Shown piece after piece: positions 1 through 11,462 of a stretch of DNA of 12,224 nt. Positions within the stretch are counted from its first letter, which is position 1; each line of letters starts with the position of its first letter. A program made the position numbers and the translations under genes. Under the pieces are notes generated by a model. It was not told where the DNA came from. It saw only the letters and a list, made by a program, of their open reading frames with translations, and did not search any database. The stretch comes from Alphaproteobacteria bacterium (GTDB taxonomy: Bacteria; Pseudomonadota; Alphaproteobacteria; Micropepsales; Micropepsaceae): positions 1 through 12,224 of the forward strand of contig CANGRN010000013.1 of the NCBI GenBank assembly GCA_947455695.1, read 5' to 3'.

Positions 1-42
1 AGCCAGCAGGACAAACAAGGCGGCGGCGAATTTCTTCATCAT
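1..42 (-). CDS. Start of a probable exported protein (3' part outside window)
   Basis: Only the first 14 codons are visible, read from 42 down to 1: MMKKFAAALFVLLA. Two adjacent ATG codons (42-40 and 39-37) are followed by two lysines and then an uninterrupted alanine/leucine/valine stretch. That is the n-region and hydrophobic core of a Sec signal peptide, so the product is probably periplasmic, outer-membrane or a lipoprotein. It begins 11 bases after the stop codon of the dehydratase gene on the same strand, so it is probably the next gene of the same transcript. No strong Shine-Dalgarno sequence precedes it (the gap is AT-rich), so translation may depend on coupling to the upstream gene. 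Nothing can be said about its function. Confidence 0.6.
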   Translation of the reverse strand, partial: MMKKFAAALFVLLA

Positions 43-53
43 GTATTTTTCAA

Positions 54-1301
54 TCAAATCGGTGTGGCGTTGTGATCCCAGCCCCAGCCCGGGGTGCGGG
101 TGGGATGCATGTAGATGCCTTCGGGGCCGCGTGTGATCTCATACTGTTCTTCGAACATGTCATAGGCCTTCTTGGGCCCGCCCGGCGGGGGCATGAACAG
201 TTCGGCCCAGGGGGCGTTGATATGGCTGATCGACCAGTGCACCGCGCCATTAAGGCCGCCGCCATGCGGAATGACGTCGATGTCATAGGCTTCGGCCAGC
301 GCGCCGATCTTGCGCAGCTCGCTCATGCCGCCGCACCAAGTCACGTCGGGCTGCCAGATGGACGCGCCATCGGCGTCCAGCAGCTTGCGGAAGCCGTAGC
401 GCCCATAGACATGCTCGCCGGTGGCGATGTTGGTGGAGGTGATCTTCTTGCGCAGCCGCCCAAAGCCCGCGAATTCATAGGGCGGCAACACTTCTTCCAC
501 CCACTTGACGCGATACGGCTCCATCAGCTTGCACATCTCGATGGTGTATTGCTCGTCCCACGACATCCAGCAGTCGCACATGACGTCGCCGTCCGGGCCG
601 ACCGCCTTGCGGGCCCGCGCCACCAGCGCGACATTCTCGCGCTTGCCTTCCTCGCCGCGGATCGGGCCGGCCGGCATCGCCACTTTCAGCCGCTTGTAGC
701 CGAAGGCGACATGCTGCTCGATGTCATTGCCGGTGCAATAGGCCGGGATGCGCGGCTTGGCCTCGCCGCCCAGGAGTTGATAGACCGGCACGCCCAGCGC
801 CTTGCCGACAATGTCCCACAGCGCATTGTCGAAGCCGGAGATGGCGTTCATCGTCACGCCTTCGGTGCCGTAGGATTCCATCACCCGGAAGGCGATGTCC
901 CAGTTGCGCTCGATGTCGAAGGGATCGCGGCCCATCATCAGCGGGGCCAGGTGCCCCATCACAAGCGCGCCGCCGCCGGCGCCGCCTTCGCCATAACCCA
1001 CAATGCCCTTGTCGGTGGTAATCTCCACTGTGAAGCCCGGCACATTCCTGGCTGCGAACAGGCTGCGGGTGGGGCGGAATTCCGGATAGATGTTGGGCGG
1101 CGCCGAGACTTCCACGCCCTGGGTGGACCAGGAACCGGCGGCCGGGGTGTAGACGGGCGGCGGATTCCTGGGCGTCAGCTTCACCAGGCGGATGCCGGTG
1201 ATCTTGAGCTTGGATTTCTCCTGCGCCCAGCCCAGCGTGGGCAAGCTCAAGGCGCCGGCCGCCAGGGCCGCCGCACCGGTCACGAAATCGCGGCGTTTCA
1301 T
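54..1301 (-). CDS. Tat-exported enolase-superfamily acid-sugar dehydratase (rhamnonate dehydratase-like)
   Basis: A 415-residue member of the mandelate racemase/muconate lactonizing subgroup of the enolase superfamily, which abstracts a proton alpha to a carboxylate with Mg2+ help. The N-terminus MKRRDFVTG followed by an Ala/Leu-rich core ending near GWAQ (residue 27) is a classic twin-arginine signal, so a folded enzyme should be exported to the periplasm. The capping domain is about residues 33-150 and the barrel about 155-370. It most resembles E. coli L-rhamnonate dehydratase as I recall it: DCWMS with D243, KWVEE with E269 and TGEH with E296 are the expected metal ligands, QPDVTWCGG follows, and H346 in PHGGG is the likely catalytic base. 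Ligand spacing (26, 27 and 50 residues) nearly matches that enzyme. A Shine-Dalgarno-like AAGGGGAG precedes the ATG. It lies 53 bases after the cytochrome-dehydrogenase gene. The fold is secure; the substrate (some aldonate) is not, and gluconate, galactonate or related acids are possible. Confidence 0.87.
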   Translation of the reverse strand: MKRRDFVTGAAALAAGALSLPTLGWAQEKSKLKITGIRLVKLTPRNPPPVYTPAAGSWSTQGVEVSAPPNIYPEFRPTRSLFAARNVPGFTVEITTDKGIVGYGEGGAGGGALVMGHLAPLMMGRDPFDIERNWDIAFRVMESYGTEGVTMNAISGFDNALWDIVGKALGVPVYQLLGGEAKPRIPAYCTGNDIEQHVAFGYKRLKVAMPAGPIRGEEGKRENVALVARARKAVGPDGDVMCDCWMSWDEQYTIEMCKLMEPYRVKWVEEVLPPYEFAGFGRLRKKITSTNIATGEHVYGRYGFRKLLDADGASIWQPDVTWCGGMSELRKIGALAEAYDIDVIPHGGGLNGAVHWSISHINAPWAELFMPPPGGPKKAYDMFEEQYEITRGPEGIYMHPTRTPGWGWDHNATPI

Positions 1302-1327
1302 GCTGTTCTCCCCTTTGCGCCACTTAT

Positions 1328-1354
1328 GGGCGTTTAAAGGAGAGCCTAACGCCC
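1328..1354 (-). other. Intergenic hairpin just after the cytochrome-dehydrogenase gene
   Basis: The 7-base arms GGGCGTT (1328-1334) and AACGCCC (1348-1354) are perfect inverted repeats around a 13-base loop, which can form a further 3-bp AGG/CCT stem. The structure starts immediately after the TAA stop codon at 1357-1355 on the minus strand. No T-run follows it, so it is not a standard intrinsic terminator. It could slow 3' RNA decay or tune expression between the dehydrogenase and dehydratase genes, or it may be chance in GC-rich DNA. Confidence 0.35.
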
Positions 1355-2905
1355 TTAGTTGGCGGGCACCAGACGGATGATGGAGCCGCCCTTGGCGTCG
1401 CCATTCATGTTTTGCAGCAGCACATAGAGCAGGCCGTCGGGCCCGACCTTCACATCGCGCACCCGGCCGTAATCGGCGATCAGTGTTTCCTGGGACACGA
1501 TCTGGCGGCCCTTGATCTCCATGCGGATCAGCTTCTGGCCGACCATGCCGGTGATGAAGAGATTGCCCTTCCAGGCGGGGAATTTGTCGCCCGTATAGAA
1601 AGTGATGCCACTGGGACCGATCGAGGGATTGTAATAGGTGATCGGATCGGTGACGCCGGTGGCGTGCAGACGGCCGATGCCCGGCTCGATTCCGAAGGTG
1701 GCCATGCCCCAGCCGTAATTCTTGCCCGGCTCGATGATGTTGACCTCATCGCCGCCCACCGGACCATGCTCGGTTTCCCAGAAGATGCCGGTGGCCGGAT
1801 CGAAGGAGAGGCCCTCCGGATTGCGGTGGCCGAAAGTCCAGATGCTGCCCAGCGCGCCGGGCGTGTGGACGAAGGGATTGTCCTTCGGGATAGAGCCATC
1901 GAGGTTGAGGCGATGGATCTTGCCCAGCGGCGAGGCCAGATTCTGGGACATCTGCATGTCATGGCGCTCGCCCATGGACCAGAAGAAGTGGCCCTTGCCG
2001 TCGAACAGGAAGCGCGAGCCGTAATGGTCGGCGGTGACGCGATAGGAATCGGCCGGCGGATTGAACAGCACCTGCTGATCCACCCACTCATTGTTGGCAT
2101 TGACCTTGCCGCGCACCACCCAGGTCATGGTCGGCGGCGCCATGTTGGGCGCCTGCTCGTCGCCCGGCTGGATCTGGTAGCCCGGCGCCACGGTGGAATA
2201 GGAAATATAGATCCAGCCCGTCTTGGCGAAGTCGGGCGGCACCGCCACGTCCAGAAGGCCGCCGTCCTGGCGTTCGAACACCGCGGGCGTGCCCTTTACC
2301 GGCGCCGACGCATTGCCGTTCTTGTCCATGAAGCGCAACTGGCCGGAACGCTCGGTGAAGACCATGCGGCCATCGGGCAGGAAGGCCATGCCCCAGGGCT
2401 GGTTCAGGCCCTTGACCAGGGTCTCGACCTTGAAGCTGGCCTTCTGGCTGTTGAACACCTTGCCGGTGATGTCGGGCACAGGACCGACCTTGCGGTTGAC
2501 GATGCCGGCACGGATGCGGATCAGCGCCGGCATCTGGGCGATTTCATCGAGGAAGAACAGGGTGGTGAACTTGTGATTGGGCGTGCCGGGCACGCCATCG
2601 GTCAGCGCCTGCACGATCTGGGCATCGGTGTGGCTGCCCAGATAGTCGTTGCTGAACAGCGCATGGGCGCTGGGCTCGGCGCCGGCGGTGGTGCCGTGGC
2701 AGGCGGCGCAGGTGGTGTTGTAGATCTCATTGGCGCGCGACTGCAGCAGCGCCGGCACCGGCGCCTGCTGCTTGCGGGCAGGAATGTTCAGCGGCTCAGC
2801 TTGCGCAGGCGTCGCTTTCTGCTGCACGCCGGGCTGGGCCAGCGCGGCGACCGTCAGGCCGGCGATCACGGTCGAGGCCAACGCGGCCAGCAAGATGCGC
2901 TTCAT
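1355..2905 (-). CDS. Exported cytochrome c / PQQ-dependent sugar dehydrogenase fusion (GSDH family)
   Basis: A 516-residue two-domain oxidoreductase. Residues 1-23 form a Sec signal peptide (MKRILLAALA... ending ALA). Residues about 50-135 are a small class I cytochrome c domain with the haem site CAACH at 66-70 and a probable axial methionine at M125 (AQMPAL). Residues about 160-516 are the six-bladed propeller of the glucose/sorbosone dehydrogenase family, starting with QPWGMAFLPDGRM. Compared with Acinetobacter soluble glucose dehydrogenase from memory, the catalytic His144 equals H294 in ADHYGSR and the Arg228/Asn229 pair equals R361/N362 in GHRNPEG. The segment ETEHGPVGGDE (377-387) matches the calcium/PQQ region. 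It should oxidise an aldose or similar alcohol to a lactone in the periplasm and pass electrons through its own haem to the respiratory chain. A good GGGAGAG ribosome site precedes the ATG. The gene is 43 bases after the PLP-enzyme gene. Substrate unknown. Confidence 0.88.
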   Translation of the reverse strand: MKRILLAALASTVIAGLTVAALAQPGVQQKATPAQAEPLNIPARKQQAPVPALLQSRANEIYNTTCAACHGTTAGAEPSAHALFSNDYLGSHTDAQIVQALTDGVPGTPNHKFTTLFFLDEIAQMPALIRIRAGIVNRKVGPVPDITGKVFNSQKASFKVETLVKGLNQPWGMAFLPDGRMVFTERSGQLRFMDKNGNASAPVKGTPAVFERQDGGLLDVAVPPDFAKTGWIYISYSTVAPGYQIQPGDEQAPNMAPPTMTWVVRGKVNANNEWVDQQVLFNPPADSYRVTADHYGSRFLFDGKGHFFWSMGERHDMQMSQNLASPLGKIHRLNLDGSIPKDNPFVHTPGALGSIWTFGHRNPEGLSFDPATGIFWETEHGPVGGDEVNIIEPGKNYGWGMATFGIEPGIGRLHATGVTDPITYYNPSIGPSGITFYTGDKFPAWKGNLFITGMVGQKLIRMEIKGRQIVSQETLIADYGRVRDVKVGPDGLLYVLLQNMNGDAKGGSIIRLVPAN

Positions 2906-2948
2906 GAATCTCTCCCAAATCGGATTATTTTGCCGGGACTATAACGCC

Positions 2949-4271
2949 TTACCAGACCGCAGCAACGGCGCTTTCGAACTGTTCCAGGGTAAACTGGACA
3001 TCCGCGTCGCTGTGCGCCGCCGACAGCGAACATTGCTTGGTCGCAATGGGCACGAAGAACACCCCGCGCTGGATCAGGGCACGGCGCAGCGCCACGTCCT
3101 TGGCGAAGTCATGACCTTCGATAATGTCATGCAGGTCGGCCGGCGGCTTTTCCATCAGGTAGAAGGAGAAGGCCGAGCCCTGGCGCGCCACGCAGGCCTC
3201 GATGCCCTTGCGCGCAAAGATATCCAGGATGCCCGCTTCCATCGTCGCGCCCATCTTCTCCATCCGGGGATAGAGCGAATCCTTGGTGGCGACCAGGTAG
3301 CGCACCGTCTCGATGGCCGCGGCCACGGCCACCGGATGACCATTATACGTGCCCGCCACGAAGGGACGGCGCGCCGGATCCGGATCGATGATCGAGTCCA
3401 TGTATTCGGCCTTGCCGCCCACCACCGCCAGCGGGAAGCCGTTGGCCACCGCCTTGCCATACACGACAAGATCGGGCCGCACGCCGCTGATCTCGCTGTA
3501 ACCGCCCACGGCATGGCGGAAGCCGGTCTTCACTTCGTCGAACACCAGCAGGAAGCCGAACTCGTCCGCCAGGTCGCGCAGGCCCTCGAGATAGCCCGGC
3601 TTGGGCTTCACCACCCCGATATTCTGCAGCAGGGGCTCGGTGATCAGGGCAGCGACAGGATAGCGGCGGCAGACATAGCGCACCGATTCCAGGTCGTTGT
3701 AGTTGACCGCATGGGTGAAGCGGTTGTGGGTCAGTGTCGTCCCCGCGCCCAGCGGCCGCAAAGGATATTCGCCGGGCGTCACGCGCGGCCCGATCTCGGC
3801 CAGCGTGTTGAAGACGTTGGTCGCCAGTTCGTCGTGATTGCCGTTATAGCCGCCCTGCATCACGATGACGTGCTGGCGGCCCGTCACGGCGCGTGAAATG
3901 CGGATGGCCAGCGAGGTCGCCTCGCTGCCGGTGTTCATCAGGGTGACCTTGTCGACCGCCGGCACATTCTCGCAGATCAGCTCGGCCAGACGCCCTTCGG
4001 AAATGGACGGCCCGGCGCCGAACAGGCTGTCGCCGCTGTTCAGGGCGGCGGCGGCGGCCATGTTGATGGTCTTGAAATTGTGCCCCAGGAAATAGGGCGC
4101 AAAGCCGGCATGATAATCGATATAGCGCTTGCCCTCGGTGTCCCACAGATAGGCGCCTTCGGCCTTCGTGAAGGTGATGGCCGGATCGATGGCGCGGTTG
4201 ACCGAGGAAATGCCGCCCGGAATGTAGCGGCGGTTGTGCTGCAGAACGGTTTCGGCGGAGGGCTTATCCAT
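2949..4271 (-). CDS. Class III PLP enzyme, glutamate-1-semialdehyde aminomutase-like
   Basis: A 440-residue fold-type I PLP enzyme. Visible signatures are RYIPGGISSVNRA at the N-terminus, the phosphate-site GSEATS (115-120), VFDEVKTGFR with D245 to hold the pyridine nitrogen, and YGKAVANGFPL with K273 as the Schiff-base lysine. SAAHSDADV near the C-terminus resembles the end of HemL enzymes. No signal peptide, so cytoplasmic. The family moves amino groups, either between molecules (aminotransferases) or within one (aminomutases). I do not assign it hemL. It sits between a hydrolase and a sugar dehydrogenase with a transporter, and no other tetrapyrrole gene is in view, so it more likely acts on an amino compound in the catabolic pathway. 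Its ATG lies inside the last codons of the hydrolase gene (8-base overlap, ATGGATAA), so translation is probably coupled. Exact reaction unknown. Confidence 0.85.
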   Translation of the reverse strand: MDKPSAETVLQHNRRYIPGGISSVNRAIDPAITFTKAEGAYLWDTEGKRYIDYHAGFAPYFLGHNFKTINMAAAAALNSGDSLFGAGPSISEGRLAELICENVPAVDKVTLMNTGSEATSLAIRISRAVTGRQHVIVMQGGYNGNHDELATNVFNTLAEIGPRVTPGEYPLRPLGAGTTLTHNRFTHAVNYNDLESVRYVCRRYPVAALITEPLLQNIGVVKPKPGYLEGLRDLADEFGFLLVFDEVKTGFRHAVGGYSEISGVRPDLVVYGKAVANGFPLAVVGGKAEYMDSIIDPDPARRPFVAGTYNGHPVAVAAAIETVRYLVATKDSLYPRMEKMGATMEAGILDIFARKGIEACVARQGSAFSFYLMEKPPADLHDIIEGHDFAKDVALRRALIQRGVFFVPIATKQCSLSAAHSDADVQFTLEQFESAVAAVW

Positions 4272-5664
4272 GGGCTTCTTCTAGTTTCCTGAGGGATTTG
4301 GTGGTGTCGTCGATCACCTGCTCCATGCAACCGGGCTGGAACAGGGAAATCTTGATCTGGTAAAGGCCCGGCTTCTCATAGGTATCGGCCGGCGCCAGAT
4401 ACCCGACATTGCCGTTGACGATGTTCAGCACCATCACGGCATGGCCGGGGAAGCGGGCGCGGATTTCCTTTTGATAGGCGCTGTAGGGCTCGGCCGGCGC
4501 GCCCACCAGGAACGCATCGCCCATCTGAACCAGCGTGGTCGAAACGGTGCGCGATTTACCCTCGCCCACGTCCCGTCGCACCATCAGCCGCCGTTCCAGC
4601 CGCTCCTTCAGGGGGCGGTCGGTGCAATCCTTCAATTGCGCCAGCAGTTCGGCTTCCGTGGGCAAATTGACGTAAGGCAGCTCGGTGTTGGAACGGGTGA
4701 TCTTCAGCGCCGTGCTGGCGGGCTTGGGACGCAGGCTCCAGCGGCCCAGCCGCGCGCCCGAATCCTCGATGCGGTCGAAGGCAATTTCCTGTTCCGGCGG
4801 CAGCATGCCGGTCAGGGTGGACAGCGCCGCATAACCCAGCTGGCGGCCATTCTGGTCGGCAATGGCGGCATCGCTTTCATAGGAGCGCAACGGCGTCATG
4901 TCGCCGGAGGCGCCATGCAGGAAGAAACAGGGCGCTCCGCCGGTGTCGCGTTCCACCACTTCGCGCATGGCGCCATAATAGTCGGGCGAGATCAGCTTGT
5001 TGCCGCCCCCCAGGGACACCGGGTGGCAGGCATAGTTGACCATGGTGGCGATGATCTTGCCCTTCGCGTCGGTGACGCGTCCCACCAGCACTGTGTCGTC
5101 GCTGGGGCCGTCGGGATTGACGCTGCACAGGAAGGTTTCACTGTCCAAAACCAGATCGCGATTGCGCGCCATGTCGCAGCGGCCCTCGGCCCAGCTGGCC
5201 ACCGCGGGCTGCACATTGGCCTTGGACACCTTGATGACCTTGACCGCGCCTTCCACGATCTTGTCGCGATAGGGCGGAATCAGATGACCGCCTTCGCGTT
5301 CCAGATTCTGAAGATTGGTGATCGGTCCCGAATGGGTATGGCCCATATGGGTGATGAGCTGGTCGTTGCGGATCCCCGTTTCCTTCAGGATGCGCTCGCG
5401 AATCTCCATCTCATGGGCGTTGTCGTACCACCAGCCCAGGTCGAAACAGACCAGATATAGCTCGATCCTGGGATCGCCGCCGCGAATGAACATGCTGGTG
5501 ACATAGAGCGGACGATGGATGCCCTCGGCCGAGTCGTGCTTGGCGCTGCCCCAGGACCGGGAATAGATGCCCACCGGCGGGGTGATATCGGCCTTGGCCA
5601 CACCGATCTCGCCTTTGAATTCCGACTGCCGAATGACCAGATCCGAAATGTTTCTTTTGTTCAT
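4264..5664 (-). CDS. Neutral/alkaline ceramidase-like metallohydrolase (N-terminal domain type)
   Basis: A 466-residue protein with landmarks of the neutral/alkaline non-lysosomal ceramidase N-terminal domain: GVAKADITPPVG (21-32), GHTHSGP (108-114), NYACHP (210-215), HGASGDMTP (250-258), GAPAEPYSAY (388-397) and NGNVGYLAP (418-426). By analogy with the Pseudomonas ceramidase zinc site, H109, H214, E392 and Y422 are the likely metal ligands. It has no signal peptide and no C-terminal immunoglobulin-like domain, so it is a short and apparently cytoplasmic version, unlike the secreted ceramidases. Many such short homologues have no proven substrate, and amide or ester hydrolysis is only an inference. 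The chosen ATG overlaps the symporter stop codon as ATGA and has a strong AGGAACAGG site. A longer reading frame extending to 7155 is the shadow of the symporter gene. Confidence 0.8.
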   Translation of the reverse strand: MNKRNISDLVIRQSEFKGEIGVAKADITPPVGIYSRSWGSAKHDSAEGIHRPLYVTSMFIRGGDPRIELYLVCFDLGWWYDNAHEMEIRERILKETGIRNDQLITHMGHTHSGPITNLQNLEREGGHLIPPYRDKIVEGAVKVIKVSKANVQPAVASWAEGRCDMARNRDLVLDSETFLCSVNPDGPSDDTVLVGRVTDAKGKIIATMVNYACHPVSLGGGNKLISPDYYGAMREVVERDTGGAPCFFLHGASGDMTPLRSYESDAAIADQNGRQLGYAALSTLTGMLPPEQEIAFDRIEDSGARLGRWSLRPKPASTALKITRSNTELPYVNLPTEAELLAQLKDCTDRPLKERLERRLMVRRDVGEGKSRTVSTTLVQMGDAFLVGAPAEPYSAYQKEIRARFPGHAVMVLNIVNGNVGYLAPADTYEKPGLYQIKISLFQPGCMEQVIDDTTKSLRKLEEAHG

Positions 5665-7388
5665 GGTCCTGTTCCTGGGAAGACGAACTGAGAGAATATC
5701 ACCATGGCGGCCAAGGTCAGCACCAATGACAGGCCGGCCCACAGCACCACGCTGCTGTACCAGGCCTTCCCCAGGCCTTCCCCCAGCGTTTCCCTGGAAT
5801 TCCAGAAGGTCACGGGATCCGGGTCGGTCCCCGGGGTGGGGGCGGGGTGGGCCAGGGTGCCCAGGACGCAGGCCAATATGGAGAGCGCCAGGCAGACCGG
5901 GGCCTGGTTGCCGAAGGGGTAGAACCAGCCCGGCAGGTACGGTGCCGGCCAGGTAAGGGCGGCCACCTTGAATGCGATGCCCACGCCGAAACCGGTGACA
6001 ATGGCGGCGATGGCCCCTGCCCCATTGGTGCGCTTCCAGAGCAGGCCCACCCACAGGATGGCGGCGAAGGGCGGCGCCACCAGCGCGTTGATGGTCTGCA
6101 TATACTGATAGATGCCCGCATCCATCCGGCTGATCGCGATGGCCATGGCGATGCCGGCCATGATCGAGGCGAAGGACGCCCAGATGCCGAAGCGCACTTT
6201 CTGTTTTTCGGTCGCGTGCTTGTTGATCAGCGCGGCATAGATGTCGAATGTCAGGATCGCGCCGGTGGCATTGACCACGGAACTCACGGTGGCCTGCACG
6301 GCGCAGATCAGGACTGCGAGCAACAGCCCGCGCAATCCGACCGGAAAGAACTCCCGCACCAGCACCACAAATCCGCCGTCGGCCCGGTGGCTGGCGGTTG
6401 CCCAGTCGCCCAGCATGAATTCGGGATGGCGCGCGAACAGGATCAGGCCCGGCAGCACGATGATCAGCGGCAGGAACAGCTTGGCATAGCCGGCCATCAC
6501 CATGCCCATGCGGGCATGCCAGATGTCGCGCGCGCCCAGCACGCGCTGGACGATGAACTGGTTCATCACCCCGTACCACACGCCTACCGCCAGGAAGCCG
6601 AAGAAAGTGCCGGTCCAGGGCACCAGCGGATGATCCGGCGGCTGGAACACCGTCATGCGGTTGTAGGTGCCGTACTGGGTGAGATGCGGGGAACTGGCTT
6701 CCAGCGCCCTGTGCCAGACGCCGCTGGCGGCGACATTCTTGTCGATCACATAGTTGAAGCCGTCGATGATGCCGCCCGATGCGGTCATCGCCTTCAGCGC
6801 CAGGATGGTGAGAAGCGTCACGCCGCCGATCTTGACGATGGCGGTCAGGACGCCGGTCCAGGCCACGGTGTTGAGGCCGCCATAGACCGCCCAGCCGCCG
6901 GCGAAGATGCCGGTGCCGATGATGCACCACAAAAGCGGCCAGCCGAAAAAGCCCGCCAGCGCCAGTCCGCCGGCATACATCACCGCCGCCATGAAGATGG
7001 TGATGTTGGCGAAGATGGTCAGCAGCGCAAAGGACAGCCGCACGCCGGGGCCAAACCGCTTGGCCAGATATTCCGGCACGGTGGTGATGCGCGCCCGGAT
7101 CAGGAAGGGCACGAACAGGAAAACGATGATGACCTCGGCCAGGGTGGTCTGCCACTGGGCCAGCGCCGGCGGCACGCCCAGCAGGTAACTGGCGCCGATC
7201 AGGCCGATAAAATGCTCGGTGGAGACATTGGCGGCAATATAAGAGCCCCCGACCACGTACCAGGGCAGCCGGCGGCCGGCCAAGAAATAGTCGCTGGAGG
7301 ATCCGCGCTCACCCCGGCCGGAAACAAAGCCCACGACAGACAGCACCGCCAGGAACACGAAAAACTCGACATAGTCGAGCGGCAGCAT
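5661..7388 (-). CDS. Sodium/solute symporter of the SGLT-like SSS family
   Basis: A 575-residue integral membrane protein with about 13-14 hydrophobic helices, the usual size for this family. Hallmarks are DYFLAGRRLPWYVVGGS (33-49), STEHFIG (56-62), TTVPEYLAKRFG (102-113), GVMNQFIVQRVLGA (273-286) and ATVSSVVNATGAILTFDIY (366-384), where the serine pair fits the Na2 sodium site. At the sugar site of vSGLT, by remembered alignment, N276 and Q431 are kept, Q69 is H59 (as in human SGLT1) and E88 is Q78. The cargo is therefore probably a sugar-like or polyol-like compound other than galactose. The start is uncertain: ATG at 7388 gives the usual MLPLDYVEFF beginning. GTG codons at 7406 or 7412, or ATG at 7478, would add 6 to 30 residues, and none has a clear ribosome site. 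First gene of the minus-strand row; its stop overlaps the hydrolase start. Confidence 0.88.
   Translation of the reverse strand: MLPLDYVEFFVFLAVLSVVGFVSGRGERGSSSDYFLAGRRLPWYVVGGSYIAANVSTEHFIGLIGASYLLGVPPALAQWQTTLAEVIIVFLFVPFLIRARITTVPEYLAKRFGPGVRLSFALLTIFANITIFMAAVMYAGGLALAGFFGWPLLWCIIGTGIFAGGWAVYGGLNTVAWTGVLTAIVKIGGVTLLTILALKAMTASGGIIDGFNYVIDKNVAASGVWHRALEASSPHLTQYGTYNRMTVFQPPDHPLVPWTGTFFGFLAVGVWYGVMNQFIVQRVLGARDIWHARMGMVMAGYAKLFLPLIIVLPGLILFARHPEFMLGDWATASHRADGGFVVLVREFFPVGLRGLLLAVLICAVQATVSSVVNATGAILTFDIYAALINKHATEKQKVRFGIWASFASIMAGIAMAIAISRMDAGIYQYMQTINALVAPPFAAILWVGLLWKRTNGAGAIAAIVTGFGVGIAFKVAALTWPAPYLPGWFYPFGNQAPVCLALSILACVLGTLAHPAPTPGTDPDPVTFWNSRETLGEGLGKAWYSSVVLWAGLSLVLTLAAMVIFSQFVFPGTGP
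5668..5676 (-). promoter_or_regulatory. Ribosome binding site fixing the hydrolase start
   Basis: On the minus strand AGGAACAGG lies 3 bases before the ATG at 5664-5662, with its AGGA part at a normal distance. It lies within the last codons of the symporter gene. Together with the ATGA overlap it supports this start over upstream in-frame codons, which lie in symporter coding sequence. Confidence 0.6.
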
Positions 7389-7498: not shown

Positions 7499-10168
7499 AT
7501 GACCGAACAACCCAGACTCCCGCGCGAGGACCGCGCCTTCATCCGCCTGCTGGGCCGGCTGCTGGGCGAGGTGATCCGCGAGCAGCGCGGGGCGGACGCC
7601 TTCCGGCTGGTGGAGGACATTCGCCGCCAATCGGTGGGCGAACACCGCAGCGGCGAAATCGCCATGGACCGGCTGCGCGGTCTCAGCCAGCCGGAGATAC
7701 TGCTGCTGATCCGCGCCTTTTCGATCTTTTCCCAGCTGGCCAACATTGCCGATGATCACGTCGCGCGGCGCGAGACCAAGACGCTGGGCTCGGGCGCCGC
7801 CCAGCGCATGGAGCTGCATCCCGGCCTGACCCCCAAGCGGGTGCGCGCCTATCTGAAAGACGCGCTGTTCGTGCCGGTAATCACCGCGCACCCCACCGAG
7901 GTCAGGCGAAAATCCATCCTGGACCGCGAAAACGAACTCAGCGAACTGCTGGAGCGGCGCGAGGCGGCCAGCCTGCAGACCGCCGAGCAGGACGAGATCG
8001 ATGTGCAGCTCAAGCGCGCCATCCGTGTGCTGTGGCAGACCCGCATGCTGCGCGACAACCGCATCACCGTGCAGGACGAGATCGAGAACAACCTCGCCGT
8101 CTTCGCGCGCAGCTTCCTGCCCGGCCTGCCGCTGGTAAAGCGCCGGCTGGCACGGTTGTTCAAGCTGGATGGCGAGATGATGGCGTATCTCAAGCCCGGC
8201 TCCTGGGTGGGCGGCGACCGCGACGGAAATCCCAATGTCTCGCCCGAAACCCTGGATTATGCCGTGCGCCGCCAGGCCGAGATCGTGCTGGATCATTATC
8301 TGGGCGAAATTCACGCGCTGGGGGCCGAACTGTCGCTGTCCGATTCCCTGACACAAACCAGCGATGCGCTGAAGGCGCTGGCGGCGCGGGATGACCAGGT
8401 CTCGGTGCATCAGGGCGATGAGCCTTATCGCCGCGCACTGGTCACCTGCTATGCCCGCATGGCGGCAACCAGCGCGGCGCTGCTGGGCACCGAACCCGTG
8501 CGCAAGGCCCGCTTCAAGGCTGATGCCTATGCGACACCGGAAGACTTCGCCGCGGACCTGAACGTGATCGCGACCTCGCTGGCCGAACATGGCGATGGCG
8601 ATCTGGCGGAAGGGCGCCTGCTCAACCTGCGCGAGGCGGTCGGCGCCTTCGGCTTTCATCTGGCCACCATGGATGTGCGCCAGAACAGCGATGTCCACGA
8701 ACGCGCCGTGGCGGAACTGCTCAAAGTCGCGGACGCGGAAGCCGATTACCTGGCGCTGGCGGAAGAACAGCGGGCCGCGCTGCTGCTGACCGAACTGGCG
8801 CATGCCCGCCCCTTGCGCTCGCCTTATGCGGATTATTCCGCCGAGACGGCGCGTGAGCTGGCCATCGCCGACAAGGCCGCTGCGCTGAAGAAAAATTTCG
8901 GCGAAGGCGCGGTGGCGCAATATGTGATTTCCAAGGCCGCGACGCCATCCGACCTTCTGGAAACAGCACTCCTGATGAAGGAAGCCGGGCTGTTCCTGCC
9001 GGGCCAGACGCCGAATGCGCGGCTGCGCGTGGTGCCGCTGTTCGAGACCATCGACGACCTGCGCCAGAGCGCGGCGGTGATGGGCACCTACTTCGACGCC
9101 CCGCTGCCCAGGGCAATGATCGCCGCCCAGGGCAATTTGCAGGAAGTGATGATCGGCTATTCCGACAGCAACAAGGATGGCGGCTACGTTACCTCCAACT
9201 GGGAAATCTATTCCGGCATCGCCCGGCTGGTGGCGCTGGGCAAGGATCGCGGCATCCGCATGCGCTTCTTCCATGGCCGCGGCGGCGCGGTGGGACGCGG
9301 TGGCGGCTCCAGCTTCGACGCCATCCGCGCCCTGCCCTGCGAAGCCAGCGCCCATGGCATCCGCATCACCGAACAGGGCGAAGTGGTGGCGTCGAAATAT
9401 GGCGATCCGGAAATCGGCCAGGCCAGCCTGGAGACCATCGTCGCCGCCGCCCTGCTGGCCGAACTGTCGCCGCAGGATGATGCCGCCGATGGCGAAGACG
9501 GCGCACTGCTGGCGAAACTGTCCGAGACCGCTTTCACGCATTATCGCGGCCTGGTCTATGACACGCCGAACTTCGAGACCTATTTCCGCCAGGCCACGCC
9601 GCTGCTGGAAATCGCCGACCTGAAGATCGGCAGCCGTCCCGCCTCGCGTACCAAGTCGCCGAAGATCGAGGATCTGCGCGCCATTCCCTGGGTGTTTTCC
9701 TGGTCCCAGGCACGGGTCATGCTGCCCGGCTGGTTCGGCTTCGGCACCGCCGCGAATTCCGTGGGAATAGAACAGCTGAAACCACTCTATAAGAAGTCGG
9801 CCTTCTTTCGCACCATGCTGGCGAACATGGAGATGGTGCTGGCCAAGTCCAGCATGCCCATCGCCCGGCGTTACAGCGAACTGGTGGAGGACCGCGCCTT
9901 TGCGCAAACGGTGATGGCGCGGATCGAGGCGGAATGGCAAAGCACGCGCGCCGCGGTGCTGGCGATCAATGGGCAGTCCGAACTGCTGGCGCAAAGCCCC
10001 AGGCTGGCGGAGTCCATCCGCAGCCGCCTGCCCTATGTGGATGCGCTCAACCATCTGCAGGTAGACCTGCTGCGGCGGCGGCGCGAAGGTGATGCCAGCG
10101 CCGACATCCATGCCGGTATTCACATGTCGATCAACGGCGTCGCGGCGGGCCTTCGCAACAGCGGCTGA
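7499..10168 (+). CDS. ppc: Phosphoenolpyruvate carboxylase
   Basis: An 889-residue protein, close to the usual bacterial length. It carboxylates phosphoenolpyruvate with bicarbonate to give oxaloacetate in the cytoplasm, refilling the TCA cycle. Key motifs are all present: ITAHPTEVRR with catalytic H131, GYSDSNKDGGY with K559, FHGRGGAVGRGGGSS with R594/R600, and GEVVASKYGDPEIGQ. They match E. coli His138, Lys546 and Arg587. The C-terminus NGVAAGLRNSG retains the asparagine (N887) that in E. coli helps bind the inhibitor aspartate, and MVLAKS and SRLPYVD match the other aspartate contacts, so feedback inhibition by aspartate or malate is plausible. The ATG at 7499 gives a normal N-terminus (MTEQPRLPREDRAFIRLLGR), although only a weak purine stretch precedes it. 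The reading frame is intact. It diverges from the symporter gene and is followed closely by a sugar-dehydrogenase-like gene. Confidence 0.97.
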   Translation: MTEQPRLPREDRAFIRLLGRLLGEVIREQRGADAFRLVEDIRRQSVGEHRSGEIAMDRLRGLSQPEILLLIRAFSIFSQLANIADDHVARRETKTLGSGAAQRMELHPGLTPKRVRAYLKDALFVPVITAHPTEVRRKSILDRENELSELLERREAASLQTAEQDEIDVQLKRAIRVLWQTRMLRDNRITVQDEIENNLAVFARSFLPGLPLVKRRLARLFKLDGEMMAYLKPGSWVGGDRDGNPNVSPETLDYAVRRQAEIVLDHYLGEIHALGAELSLSDSLTQTSDALKALAARDDQVSVHQGDEPYRRALVTCYARMAATSAALLGTEPVRKARFKADAYATPEDFAADLNVIATSLAEHGDGDLAEGRLLNLREAVGAFGFHLATMDVRQNSDVHERAVAELLKVADAEADYLALAEEQRAALLLTELAHARPLRSPYADYSAETARELAIADKAAALKKNFGEGAVAQYVISKAATPSDLLETALLMKEAGLFLPGQTPNARLRVVPLFETIDDLRQSAAVMGTYFDAPLPRAMIAAQGNLQEVMIGYSDSNKDGGYVTSNWEIYSGIARLVALGKDRGIRMRFFHGRGGAVGRGGGSSFDAIRALPCEASAHGIRITEQGEVVASKYGDPEIGQASLETIVAAALLAELSPQDDAADGEDGALLAKLSETAFTHYRGLVYDTPNFETYFRQATPLLEIADLKIGSRPASRTKSPKIEDLRAIPWVFSWSQARVMLPGWFGFGTAANSVGIEQLKPLYKKSAFFRTMLANMEMVLAKSSMPIARRYSELVEDRAFAQTVMARIEAEWQSTRAAVLAINGQSELLAQSPRLAESIRSRLPYVDALNHLQVDLLRRRREGDASADIHAGIHMSINGVAAGLRNSG

Positions 10169-10187: not shown

Positions 10188-11462
10188 ATGAAACGAATCT
10201 TGTTCGCAGCGGCGCTGCTGATGCCGCTGGCGGGAATGGCGCAGGAACTGCCCCGTCCGGCGCCCACGCCGGGCGACAGCCGCGAATTTCCCACGCCTCG
10301 CATGGTCCAGGGACAATATTGGGATGCAAGGCCGCCGGAAAAGGCCGACGACAGGCCGCTGTTCCCGCAGCAGACCCGCGCGCCCTATCGCAAGTTTCAC
10401 GACTATAAAGTCACCACCATCACCGACAAATTGCACCTGCCCTGGTCCATCGCCTTCCTGCCGGATGGCAAGATGCTGGTGACGGAGAAGTATCCCGCCC
10501 ATTTGCGCATCGTCAGTCCCGACGGCGGCATGACCGAGCCGCTCGCTGGTCTTGCGGGCCTGGCATCGGCGCGTACGCTGGGGCTGCTGGACGTGGCGCT
10601 GGCGCCGGACTTTGCAAAAAGCCACCGCATCTATTTTTCCTTCTTCGATACCTTGCCCAAGGGCAACAGCAACACCTATCTGGCCCATGCCGTGCTCGAC
10701 CAGGCCGGCAACGCCGTGCATGACGTCACGGTGATCTATCGCGGCGTGCCGGAGCTGCCGATGCAGAACTTCTCCATGAAGCAGGGCGGCCGCATCGTCA
10801 TCGCGCGCGACGGCACCATCTTCATGACGGTGGGCGACCGCGACGGCAACCGCAAGGCGGACTATGACATGCAGCTGGCGCAAAAACTGGATGTCGATGT
10901 CGGCAAGATCATCCATGTGACGCCGGACGGCTTGCCCGCGCCCAACAACCCGTTCCTCAACCGTGGCGATGTGCGGCCCGAGATCTGGGCGTACGGCATC
11001 CGCAGCCCGGAGGGGTTCGTGATGGCGCCGGACGGCACGCTTTGGGAAACCGAACATGGCCCCCGCGGCGGCGACGAACTGAACAAGATCCAGCGCGGCA
11101 AGAATTACGGCTGGCCCATCATCACCCATGGCCTGGACTATCCGGGCGGCCCCATCGGCGAGGGTATTGTCGCCAAGGAGGGCCTGGAACAACCGGTCTA
11201 TTACTGGGATCCGGTGATCGCGCCTTCGGGCCTGGCCTTTTACAAGGGCAAGCTGTTTCCCAAGTGGAACGGCAACCTGCTGGCGGGCGCGCTGCGCGGG
11301 CTTGGCGTCTATCGCCTGGAACTGAAGAACGGCAAGGTTGTCGCGGAAGAACCGCTGCTGACCGACAGGAAAGAGCGCATCCGCGATGTGCGGGTGGGGC
11401 CCGACGGCGCGGTCTATGTTCTGACCGAGCAGAAGGCGCTGCTGAAGCTGACGCCGAACTAG
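10188..11462 (+). CDS. Exported PQQ-sugar-dehydrogenase-like protein with an altered active site
   Basis: A 424-residue protein with a Sec signal peptide (MKRILFAAALLMPLAGMAQ) and a single six-bladed propeller domain of the glucose/sorbosone dehydrogenase family (about 72-424). Family landmarks include LPWSIAFLPDGKMLVTE (84-100), GLLDVALAPDF (132-142), GGRIVIARDG (200-209), ETEHGPRGGDELN (287-299), GKNYGWP and the C-terminal RDVRVGPDGAVYVLTE. It has no cytochrome domain, unlike the relative at 1355-2905. In a remembered alignment to Acinetobacter soluble glucose dehydrogenase, catalytic Asp143/His144 become M197/K198 (SMKQGGR), Gln76 becomes T130 and Asn229 becomes S273 (GIRSPEG), while Arg228 is kept as R272. 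The calcium-region motif is kept. It may therefore be a non-catalytic sugar-binding or sensing propeller, or use altered chemistry. It starts 19 bases after ppc and is probably cotranscribed with it. The family is certain; activity is doubtful. Confidence 0.85.
   Translation: MKRILFAAALLMPLAGMAQELPRPAPTPGDSREFPTPRMVQGQYWDARPPEKADDRPLFPQQTRAPYRKFHDYKVTTITDKLHLPWSIAFLPDGKMLVTEKYPAHLRIVSPDGGMTEPLAGLAGLASARTLGLLDVALAPDFAKSHRIYFSFFDTLPKGNSNTYLAHAVLDQAGNAVHDVTVIYRGVPELPMQNFSMKQGGRIVIARDGTIFMTVGDRDGNRKADYDMQLAQKLDVDVGKIIHVTPDGLPAPNNPFLNRGDVRPEIWAYGIRSPEGFVMAPDGTLWETEHGPRGGDELNKIQRGKNYGWPIITHGLDYPGGPIGEGIVAKEGLEQPVYYWDPVIAPSGLAFYKGKLFPKWNGNLLAGALRGLGVYRLELKNGKVVAEEPLLTDRKERIRDVRVGPDGAVYVLTEQKALLKLTPN

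Follow-up and report, generated by a model that had tools for sequence, protein, structure and literature searches.

A conserved gene cluster joining ceramidase-like and aminomutase-like proteins to sugar-acid enzymes in a Rhizomicrobium-type bacterium, and its possible role in amino-sugar catabolism

The window analysed in this work, a stretch of 12,224 bases that is one whole contig of the 59%-complete genome (G000) of a Rhizomicrobium-type bacterium of soil and freshwater, carries on its minus strand five genes in full and 14 codons from the start of a sixth, all read in one direction. The genus name is taken from the source organisms of a few close homologues. The genes of the cluster encode a sodium:solute symporter (SSS), a ceramidase-like protein, a pyridoxal phosphate (PLP) enzyme resembling glutamate-1-semialdehyde (GSA) aminomutase (GSAM), a cytochrome c-pyrroloquinoline quinone (PQQ) aldose dehydrogenase (cytochrome-GSDH), an acid-sugar dehydratase exported by the twin-arginine translocation (Tat) system and the start of a further PQQ protein (Table 1). 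The cluster is a real, conserved and functionally coherent unit. We propose, with a probability of roughly 0.4, that its genes work together, as one unit, in the breakdown of an N-acylated amino sugar, with the steps given below; an amino-sugar or N-acylated sugar-acid derivative, as guessed in a preliminary description of this DNA, would be the best substrate class. From gene order, protein families, active-site residues, the predicted fold of the ceramidase-like protein, leaders judged by eye and conservation, all of which are observed, we infer the reactions, the substrate, the position of its nitrogen and the order of the steps.

Gene order and conservation of the cluster

The genes are packed closely. 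The SSS and ceramidase-like genes overlap by 4 bases and the ceramidase-like and GSAM-like genes by 8, stop codon included; gaps of 43 bases (GSAM-like to cytochrome-GSDH), 53 bases (cytochrome-GSDH to dehydratase) and 11 bases (dehydratase to the sixth gene) follow, and the cluster is cut at the assembly end, within the sixth gene. The single strand with overlaps or gaps of at most 53 bases, described earlier, is thus confirmed. No terminator-like site was found in the cluster gaps (five were found against 5.0 expected, all within the SSS gene), and sigma-70-like promoters numbered 0 against 1.7 expected. The five families named in the preliminary description proved correct in a Pfam scan of the window's eight proteins, with matches far above chance (SSF, PF00474, 206 bits; Ceramidase_alk 40, cut-off 32; Aminotran_3 176; GSDH 366; MR_MLE_C 154), and the SSS protein also passed TIGR00813 with 256 bits against a cut-off of 184. 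Of the six genes in its title, five are complete; the sixth is present as 14 codons, and its product had to be read from relatives.

The synteny set for the genus comprised 13 loci, namely the window, L018-L027, L030 and L031. Loci from the same genome were counted once (L125-L129 equal L030, L018, L020, L019 and L022; L076, L077, L074 and L075 equal L023, L025, L027 and L021), and L037-L071, which match the GSAM-like protein alone at 36% identity or less, were left out. The ceramidase-like gene directly precedes the GSAM-like gene in 13/13 loci. The SSS gene is upstream of this pair in 12 of the 13, and in the other (L021) the contig ends first. The cytochrome-GSDH gene follows the GSAM-like gene in 10 of the 13, the contigs of L024, L026 and L027 ending too early, and the Tat dehydratase gene is downstream in seven of the ten loci with DNA there. 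Within the genus the cluster is patchy, the GSAM-like gene being found in 12 of 60 genomes (E 1e-100). Among 37 genus genomes searched for both proteins, the GSAM-like one occurred in seven, all of them among the eight with a ceramidase-like protein of at least 80% identity; in the eighth, G001, the contig ends 70 bases past the ceramidase-like gene, and in G007 and G033 the ceramidase-like matches were only 27% identical. The hypergeometric probability of this co-occurrence is 8e-7, a value that treats related genomes as independent.

The association extends to other phyla. At E 1e-120, the GSAM-like subfamily was found only in the window's genome among 398 sampled genomes of its own phylum and in 15 of 294 sampled genomes of Planctomycetota. 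In eight of these 15 planctomycete loci (G526, G503, G617, G557, G464, G678, G726 and G422), the GSAM-like, ceramidase-like and galactonate-dehydratase-like enolase-superfamily genes lie within about 15 kb, and two of the three are together in three more (G587, G560 and G667, of which G587 and G667 were read with 1.5 kb flanks only). A further planctomycete, G423, found through L034 and outside the 294-genome sample, has all three genes nearby, and in the acidobacterial locus L035 the GSAM-like, dehydratase and ceramidase-like genes are consecutive. Two proteobacterial contigs (L028 with L113, and L029 with L114) carry SSS genes (698 and 665 bits), two ceramidase-like genes and genes for a TonB receptor, an SMP-30 protein, an aldose epimerase, a GSAM-like protein and a dehydratase; a LacI-type regulator was read in L114. 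The planctomycete loci add a short-chain dehydrogenase/reductase (SDR) and an SMP-30 protein, with a hydrolase of the fumarylacetoacetate hydrolase (FAH) family in two of the 15, G464 and G560, where its gene is downstream of the GSAM-like gene. The order in G464 is dehydratase, SDR, ceramidase-like, GSAM-like, FAH-family protein, SMP-30 and Gfo/Idh/MocA, and in the planctomycete loci L111, L112, L145, L150, L151, L152 and L154 the dehydratase and ceramidase-like genes flank an orthologous SDR gene, so labelled because it groups with two proteins assigned to SDR by Pfam. Homologues of the core were therefore not scattered, as the proposal of one unit in the preliminary description required: they stay together in the genus and recur in other phyla. 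That unrelated genes came together by chance, which the short stretch visible in the window might have allowed, is hardly credible in view of the invariant genus adjacency and this recurrence; chance grouping is refuted for the SSS, ceramidase-like and GSAM-like genes, and less firmly for the sixth gene. Different partners were seen in two planctomycete loci (L032:8856-12171 and L036:1307-3756), where a BhcC/D-threonine-aldolase-like gene stands immediately upstream of the GSAM-like gene; in L032 an amidohydrolase gene comes next.

Table 1. Features of the window
Feature	Position	Strand	Family or basis
SSS (sodium:solute symporter) transporter, 575 aa from given start	5661..7388	-	PF00474, TIGR00813
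Ceramidase-like zinc amidohydrolase, 466 aa, catalytic domain only	4264..5664	-	Ceramidase_alk
GSAM-like class-III PLP enzyme, 440 aa	2949..4271	-	PF00202 (Aminotran_3)
Exported cytochrome c-PQQ aldose dehydrogenase (sGDH/YliI type), 516 aa	1355..2905	-	GSDH, CAACH
Tat-exported enolase-superfamily acid-sugar dehydratase, L-rhamnonate-dehydratase-like, 415 aa (P0001)	54..1301	-	MR_MLE_C, PRK15440
Start of sixth gene, predicted PQQ quinohaemoprotein with N-terminal cytochrome c	1..42	-	L030 N-terminus match
Phosphoenolpyruvate (PEP) carboxylase	7499..10168	+	PRK00009
Second GSDH-family protein, divergent	10188..11462	+	GSDH 365 bits
PurU-like reading frame, open at contig end	right end of window	-	ORF

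Active sites and probable functions of the encoded proteins

The GSAM-like protein shares with HemL the fold family, the PLP lysine and the carboxylate arginine, but it scores 308 bits against the hemL model TIGR00713, under the cut-off of 527. Residues R26, N217, K273 and K412-Q413 are invariant in 12/12 GSAM-like sequences from three phyla. In GSAM, Glu406 excludes alpha-carboxylates; its column is occupied by Lys412 in all 12 sequences, which suggests a true aminotransferase, and the residues together make an aminotransferase acting on a gamma-amino acid the most likely function. A role in haem synthesis is unlikely, because 5-aminolevulinate (ALA) synthase passed its cut-off in six of the eight genus genomes with the cluster (the exceptions being two incomplete genomes, G018 and the window's own, G000), and glutamyl-tRNA reductase passed in none of the eight, against 10 of 14 controls, the window's genome being only 59% complete. 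The preliminary description placed the protein in the right family and overlooked how unlikely the haem role is.

The predicted fold of the ceramidase-like protein is that of the neutral ceramidase catalytic domain (2zws, 4wgk), at an identity of about 20%, and its match to Ceramidase_alk is to PF04734. H109, H214, E392 and Y422 align to His97, His204, Glu411 and Tyr448 of the Pseudomonas aeruginosa neutral ceramidase, which we take, in role and numbering, to be its zinc ligands. Each is invariant in 32/32 sequences, with positions counted in an alignment whose stretch holding the Glu and Tyr is weak by itself (10.8 bits), and to judge from these residues the zinc site is intact. The protein differs from neutral ceramidase in lying beside sugar-acid genes and in two further respects: the C-terminal ceramidase domain is not present, the fold match stopping at chain residue 490, and the N-terminal sequence, MNKRNISDLV, shows no hydrophobic leader by eye (here and below, leaders were judged without a predictor). 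The ceramidase fold, together with the presence of an aminopentol aminotransferase (114 bits) among the solved relatives of the GSAM-like protein, might indicate that the cluster degrades sphingolipid-like amides by means of a ceramidase and a sphingoid-base aminotransferase, as for fumonisin. We consider this very improbable, since the missing leader and domain speak against it, GSA aminomutases score far higher (237 bits) among the same relatives, and neither the acid-sugar dehydratase nor the aldose dehydrogenases would have a role.

At E 1e-60 the ceramidase-like family was found in 7 of 385 genomes of the class. In L092-L094, from three alphaproteobacterial genomes outside the genus (G385, G308 and G213), a ceramidase-like gene is at most about 11 kb from a gene for a PRK09237-related amidohydrolase, which matches that of L022 with 179-190 bits. 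A 46%-identical paralogue (L078:129-4354, G001:C124) lies with genes for creatininase-like, DgaE-like PLP ammonia-lyase and RidA proteins and a galactonate-type MFS transporter; the copy of this paralogue in the window's genome is on G000:C221.

The Tat dehydratase is nearest to L-rhamnonate dehydratases such as RhmD, although its score against PRK15440 (253 bits) is under the cut-off of 393. The metal ligands and the His/Asp dyad of L-rhamnonate dehydratases are shared, aligning with 2oz3, 3fxg, 2p0i and 3d46, and are kept in 7/7 sequences. A twin-arginine leader, which RhmD does not share, is also present in 7/7 by eye, so that dehydration should occur in the periplasm. The cytochrome-GSDH protein has a haem motif (CAACH) at residue 66, with Cytochrome_CBB3 at 25.2 bits, slightly under the cut-off of 27, and histidine 294 where PQQ aldose dehydrogenases have their catalytic histidine; this residue is kept in 10/10 sequences.

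The 14 codons of the sixth gene (MMKKFAAALFVLLA) match the start of an L030 protein (MKKFAAALFVLFA) of 786 residues, encoded at the same position and containing PQQ propeller and Cytochrom_C domains; downstream of the dehydratase gene, L030 and L031 both encode a protein (786 and 787 residues) with two cytochrome-c motifs. By this match the sixth gene encodes a PQQ quinohaemoprotein. A different PQQ-family enzyme of 661-666 residues is encoded downstream in L020-L023 (assigned by clustering, with the domain read on L022). The quinohaemoprotein (L030:13832-16192, L031:14223-16586) has a DWD motif, at residues 560-562 in L030, which resembles the pair of Asp residues characteristic of PQQ alcohol dehydrogenases that depend on lanthanides. 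At least two of the enzymes encoded in the cluster are of the PQQ type, and its hosts may depend on external PQQ. PqqE did not pass the cut-off in G000, G001, G012, G015, G017, G018, G031 or G036; as it passed in no genome of that search at all, this does not prove its absence.

The extent of the set given in the preliminary description held for the core genes, which are one unit, and missed both the identity of the sixth gene and the divergent second GSDH gene. The latter lies beside the cluster in nine, and inside it in one (L025), of the 12 genus loci with upstream DNA (L021 has none there), and is absent in L018 and L026. It diverges directly from the SSS gene, with no PEP carboxylase gene between, in L019, L020, L022, L023, L024 and L027. 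Its position across the loci indicates that it belongs to the unit. In L025 it is located between the GSAM-like and cytochrome-GSDH genes on the opposite strand, and the whole set therefore is not one transcript there. The protein has a Lys at the catalytic-His position in 10/10 sequences, which makes its activity doubtful, and it may not be a dehydrogenase. The PEP carboxylase gene (PRK00009, 1039 bits against a cut-off of 815) lies between the SSS and second GSDH genes, or beside the SSS gene, only in the window, L018, L030 and L031, and is a housekeeping gene between both halves and outside the unit. Beyond the second GSDH gene, genes for a Gfo/Idh/MocA protein and an AP_endonuc_2 TIM-barrel protein are found in L030 (31-2129), L019, L020, L027 and L031, and beyond PurU in L018. 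The best NCBIfam match of this Gfo/Idh/MocA protein is levoglucosan dehydrogenase (182 bits, under the cut-off of 650), and the pair suggests a glycoside-oxidation module adjoining the cluster.

A possible catabolic route and its alternatives

In the route that we propose, the cytochrome c-PQQ aldose dehydrogenase would oxidise the acylamino sugar at C1 to the aldonate in the periplasm, where the rhamnonate-dehydratase-like enzyme would then carry out a 2,3-dehydration to a 2-keto-3-deoxy acid that keeps its acylamino group. The SSS symporter would import this acid. In the cytoplasm, the ceramidase-like zinc enzyme would take off the acyl group, and the GSAM-like enzyme, with the carboxylate-binding arginine of GSAM, would transaminate the amine, most likely at C4, the gamma position that is also occupied in GSA and gamma-aminobutyric acid (GABA). 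The product of such a C4 transamination would be a 2,4-diketo-3-deoxy acid, which a hydrolase like LRA6 or FucG could split into pyruvate and a hydroxy acid. The leaders are consistent with this division, with the oxidising and dehydrating enzymes outside and the amidase and the PLP enzyme inside. The FAH-family protein of G464 has L-2,4-diketo-3-deoxyrhamnonate hydrolase as its best solved match (230 bits, the next 170); the idea of a diketo-acid hydrolase was framed after this gene order had been seen, and is a fit rather than a prior prediction. FAH matches were found in 24 of 26 genomes searched (E 1e-30), including a homologue at G000:C19 with 266 bits, but because the search covered genomes with the core only, these matches add little.

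Several observations weigh against this route. The Tat dehydratase gene is missing from L019, L020 and L021 (3/10), four of the 15 planctomycetes (G508, G523, G577 and G421) have the GSAM-like gene without both partners nearby, and no GSAM-like gene was present in six stretches read around ceramidase-like genes of five alphaproteobacterial genomes outside the genus (G092, G213, G266, G308 and G385), where ceramidase-like proteins thus occur without this partner. The FAH hydrolase gene adjoins the core in just two planctomycete loci, the best Rhizomicrobium homologues sit on other contigs, with none in G017 and G018 (E 1e-30), and these homologues may serve ordinary fucose or rhamnose. Furthermore, the planctomycete SDR could itself make the diketo acid, leaving the PLP enzyme unexplained, and the RidA and DgaE-like neighbours in four genus loci point to a 2-amino sugar acid.

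This last point leads to an alternative with a 2-acylamino sugar as substrate, for instance N-acetylglucosamine (GlcNAc) or its aldonate, that would be processed by PQQ oxidation, SSS import, ceramidase-like deacylation and deamination at C2 by PLP enzymes. Such a route would be an analogue, built from different families, of the ong pathway, with which it shares the logic of SSS importer, deacylase, PLP deaminase and RidA (PMC9537276). Genes for RidA and a DgaE-like PLP ammonia-lyase are downstream in L019, L021, L022 and L023, and one for a PRK09237-type amidohydrolase in L019, L021 and L022 (both by clustering, with domains read on L022 only); the G001 paralogue lies with DgaE-like, RidA and creatininase-like genes, and in L032 and L036 the gene before the GSAM-like one is D-threonine-aldolase/BhcC-like. 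The RidA and DgaE-like neighbours suggest, as in ong, a substrate among the alpha-amino beta-hydroxy acids, of which glucosaminate is an example. These contexts favour a general role of ceramidase-like proteins as amidases acting on amino sugar acids and keep an amine at C2 alive as an alternative. However, the RidA, DgaE-like, PRK09237-type and BhcC-like genes are all absent from the window, a class-III PLP enzyme would be needless at C2 if an enolase-type dehydratase acted before de-acylation, the preference of the GSAM fold is for gamma-amino acids, and an FAH-type hydrolase would have no role. We regard a C2 amine as rather unlikely.

It is also possible, but slightly less probable again, that plain sugar oxidation without amino sugars employs the ceramidase-like enzyme as a lactonase or esterase, and that the GSAM-like enzyme serves another need. 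PQQ dehydrogenases, a dehydratase, SMP-30 and an aldose epimerase would be enough for a plain aldose, and a GH67 alpha-glucuronidase gene lies upstream of the second GSDH gene in L020 (2289-4409), L023 (3279-5402) and L024 (1520-3646) (by clustering, with the domain read on L023). In contrast, an SMP-30 gene near the ceramidase-like gene in L113, L114, L152 and L154 would make a second lactonase redundant, the amidase zinc site is kept throughout the 32 sequences, and the PLP enzyme is coupled to the ceramidase-like gene across phyla.

Relation to known pathways and significance

The proposed degradation of an N-acylated amino sugar could be an amino-sugar version of the non-phosphorylating 'Route III' of fucose and rhamnose, an analogy that we hold at the same tentative level as the route itself; transamination of an amine at C4 would lead to the same kind of 2,4-diketo acid. 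Route III consists of a mutarotase, a 1-dehydrogenase, a lactonase, a dehydratase, an SDR 4-dehydrogenase and a diketo-acid hydrolase (PMC11199699, PMC6336799). With its enzymes (FucM, FucA, FucB, FucC, FucF and FucG; LRA5 and LRA6), the window shares the classes of C1 dehydrogenase and enolase-superfamily dehydratase, and the related loci share those of aldose epimerase, SMP-30, SDR and FAH hydrolase. In contrast to Route III, the window also encodes an amidase of the ceramidase-like kind and a GSAM-like PLP enzyme, its C1 oxidation is PQQ/cytochrome-based and its dehydratase is Tat-exported, and SDR, lactonase and FAH genes are not in the window.

The ong genes form the N-acetylglucosaminate pathway of Pseudoalteromonas (PMC9537276), which resembles the present set in the SSS importer, the cytoplasmic deacylase, the PLP enzyme and the amino-sugar acid logic. 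In that pathway, OngB belongs to the D-aminoacylase-type amidohydrolases, OngC is a putative deaminase of D-amino acids, and a 2-keto-3-deoxygluconate (KDG) kinase follows, whereas the families in the window are other ones; neither an amidohydrolase nor a D-serine-dehydratase-type domain was matched in the Pfam scan of its eight proteins. We class the set as a variant of the non-phosphorylating sugar-acid pathways already known. No description of such a set was found in the titles and opening lines of abstracts retrieved for the cluster, for its families together and for PF04734.

Whether the cluster represents the first route by which 4-acylamino-4-deoxy sugars (N-acyl-perosamine, say, or the Qui4N of bacterial surface glycans) are known to be degraded, an amino-sugar branch of Route III with a ceramidase-fold N-deacylase and a GSAM-fold enzyme that takes the place of the C4 dehydrogenase by transaminating the amine at C4, and common to Alphaproteobacteria, other Proteobacteria, Acidobacteriota and Planctomycetota, is doubtful on the present evidence. 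To our knowledge, no catabolic route for the 4-amino sugars of such glycans is on record, and one narrow query met no mention of perosamine degradation in the papers that it listed. The names given to ceramidase-like and GSAM-like proteins generally derive from lipid and haem enzymes. The gene order seen in three phyla links both groups to acid-sugar dehydratases and offers concrete candidate functions for the two of them. If the amine is indeed at C4, the cluster would explain how bacteria use 4-amino sugars from bacterial surface glycans.

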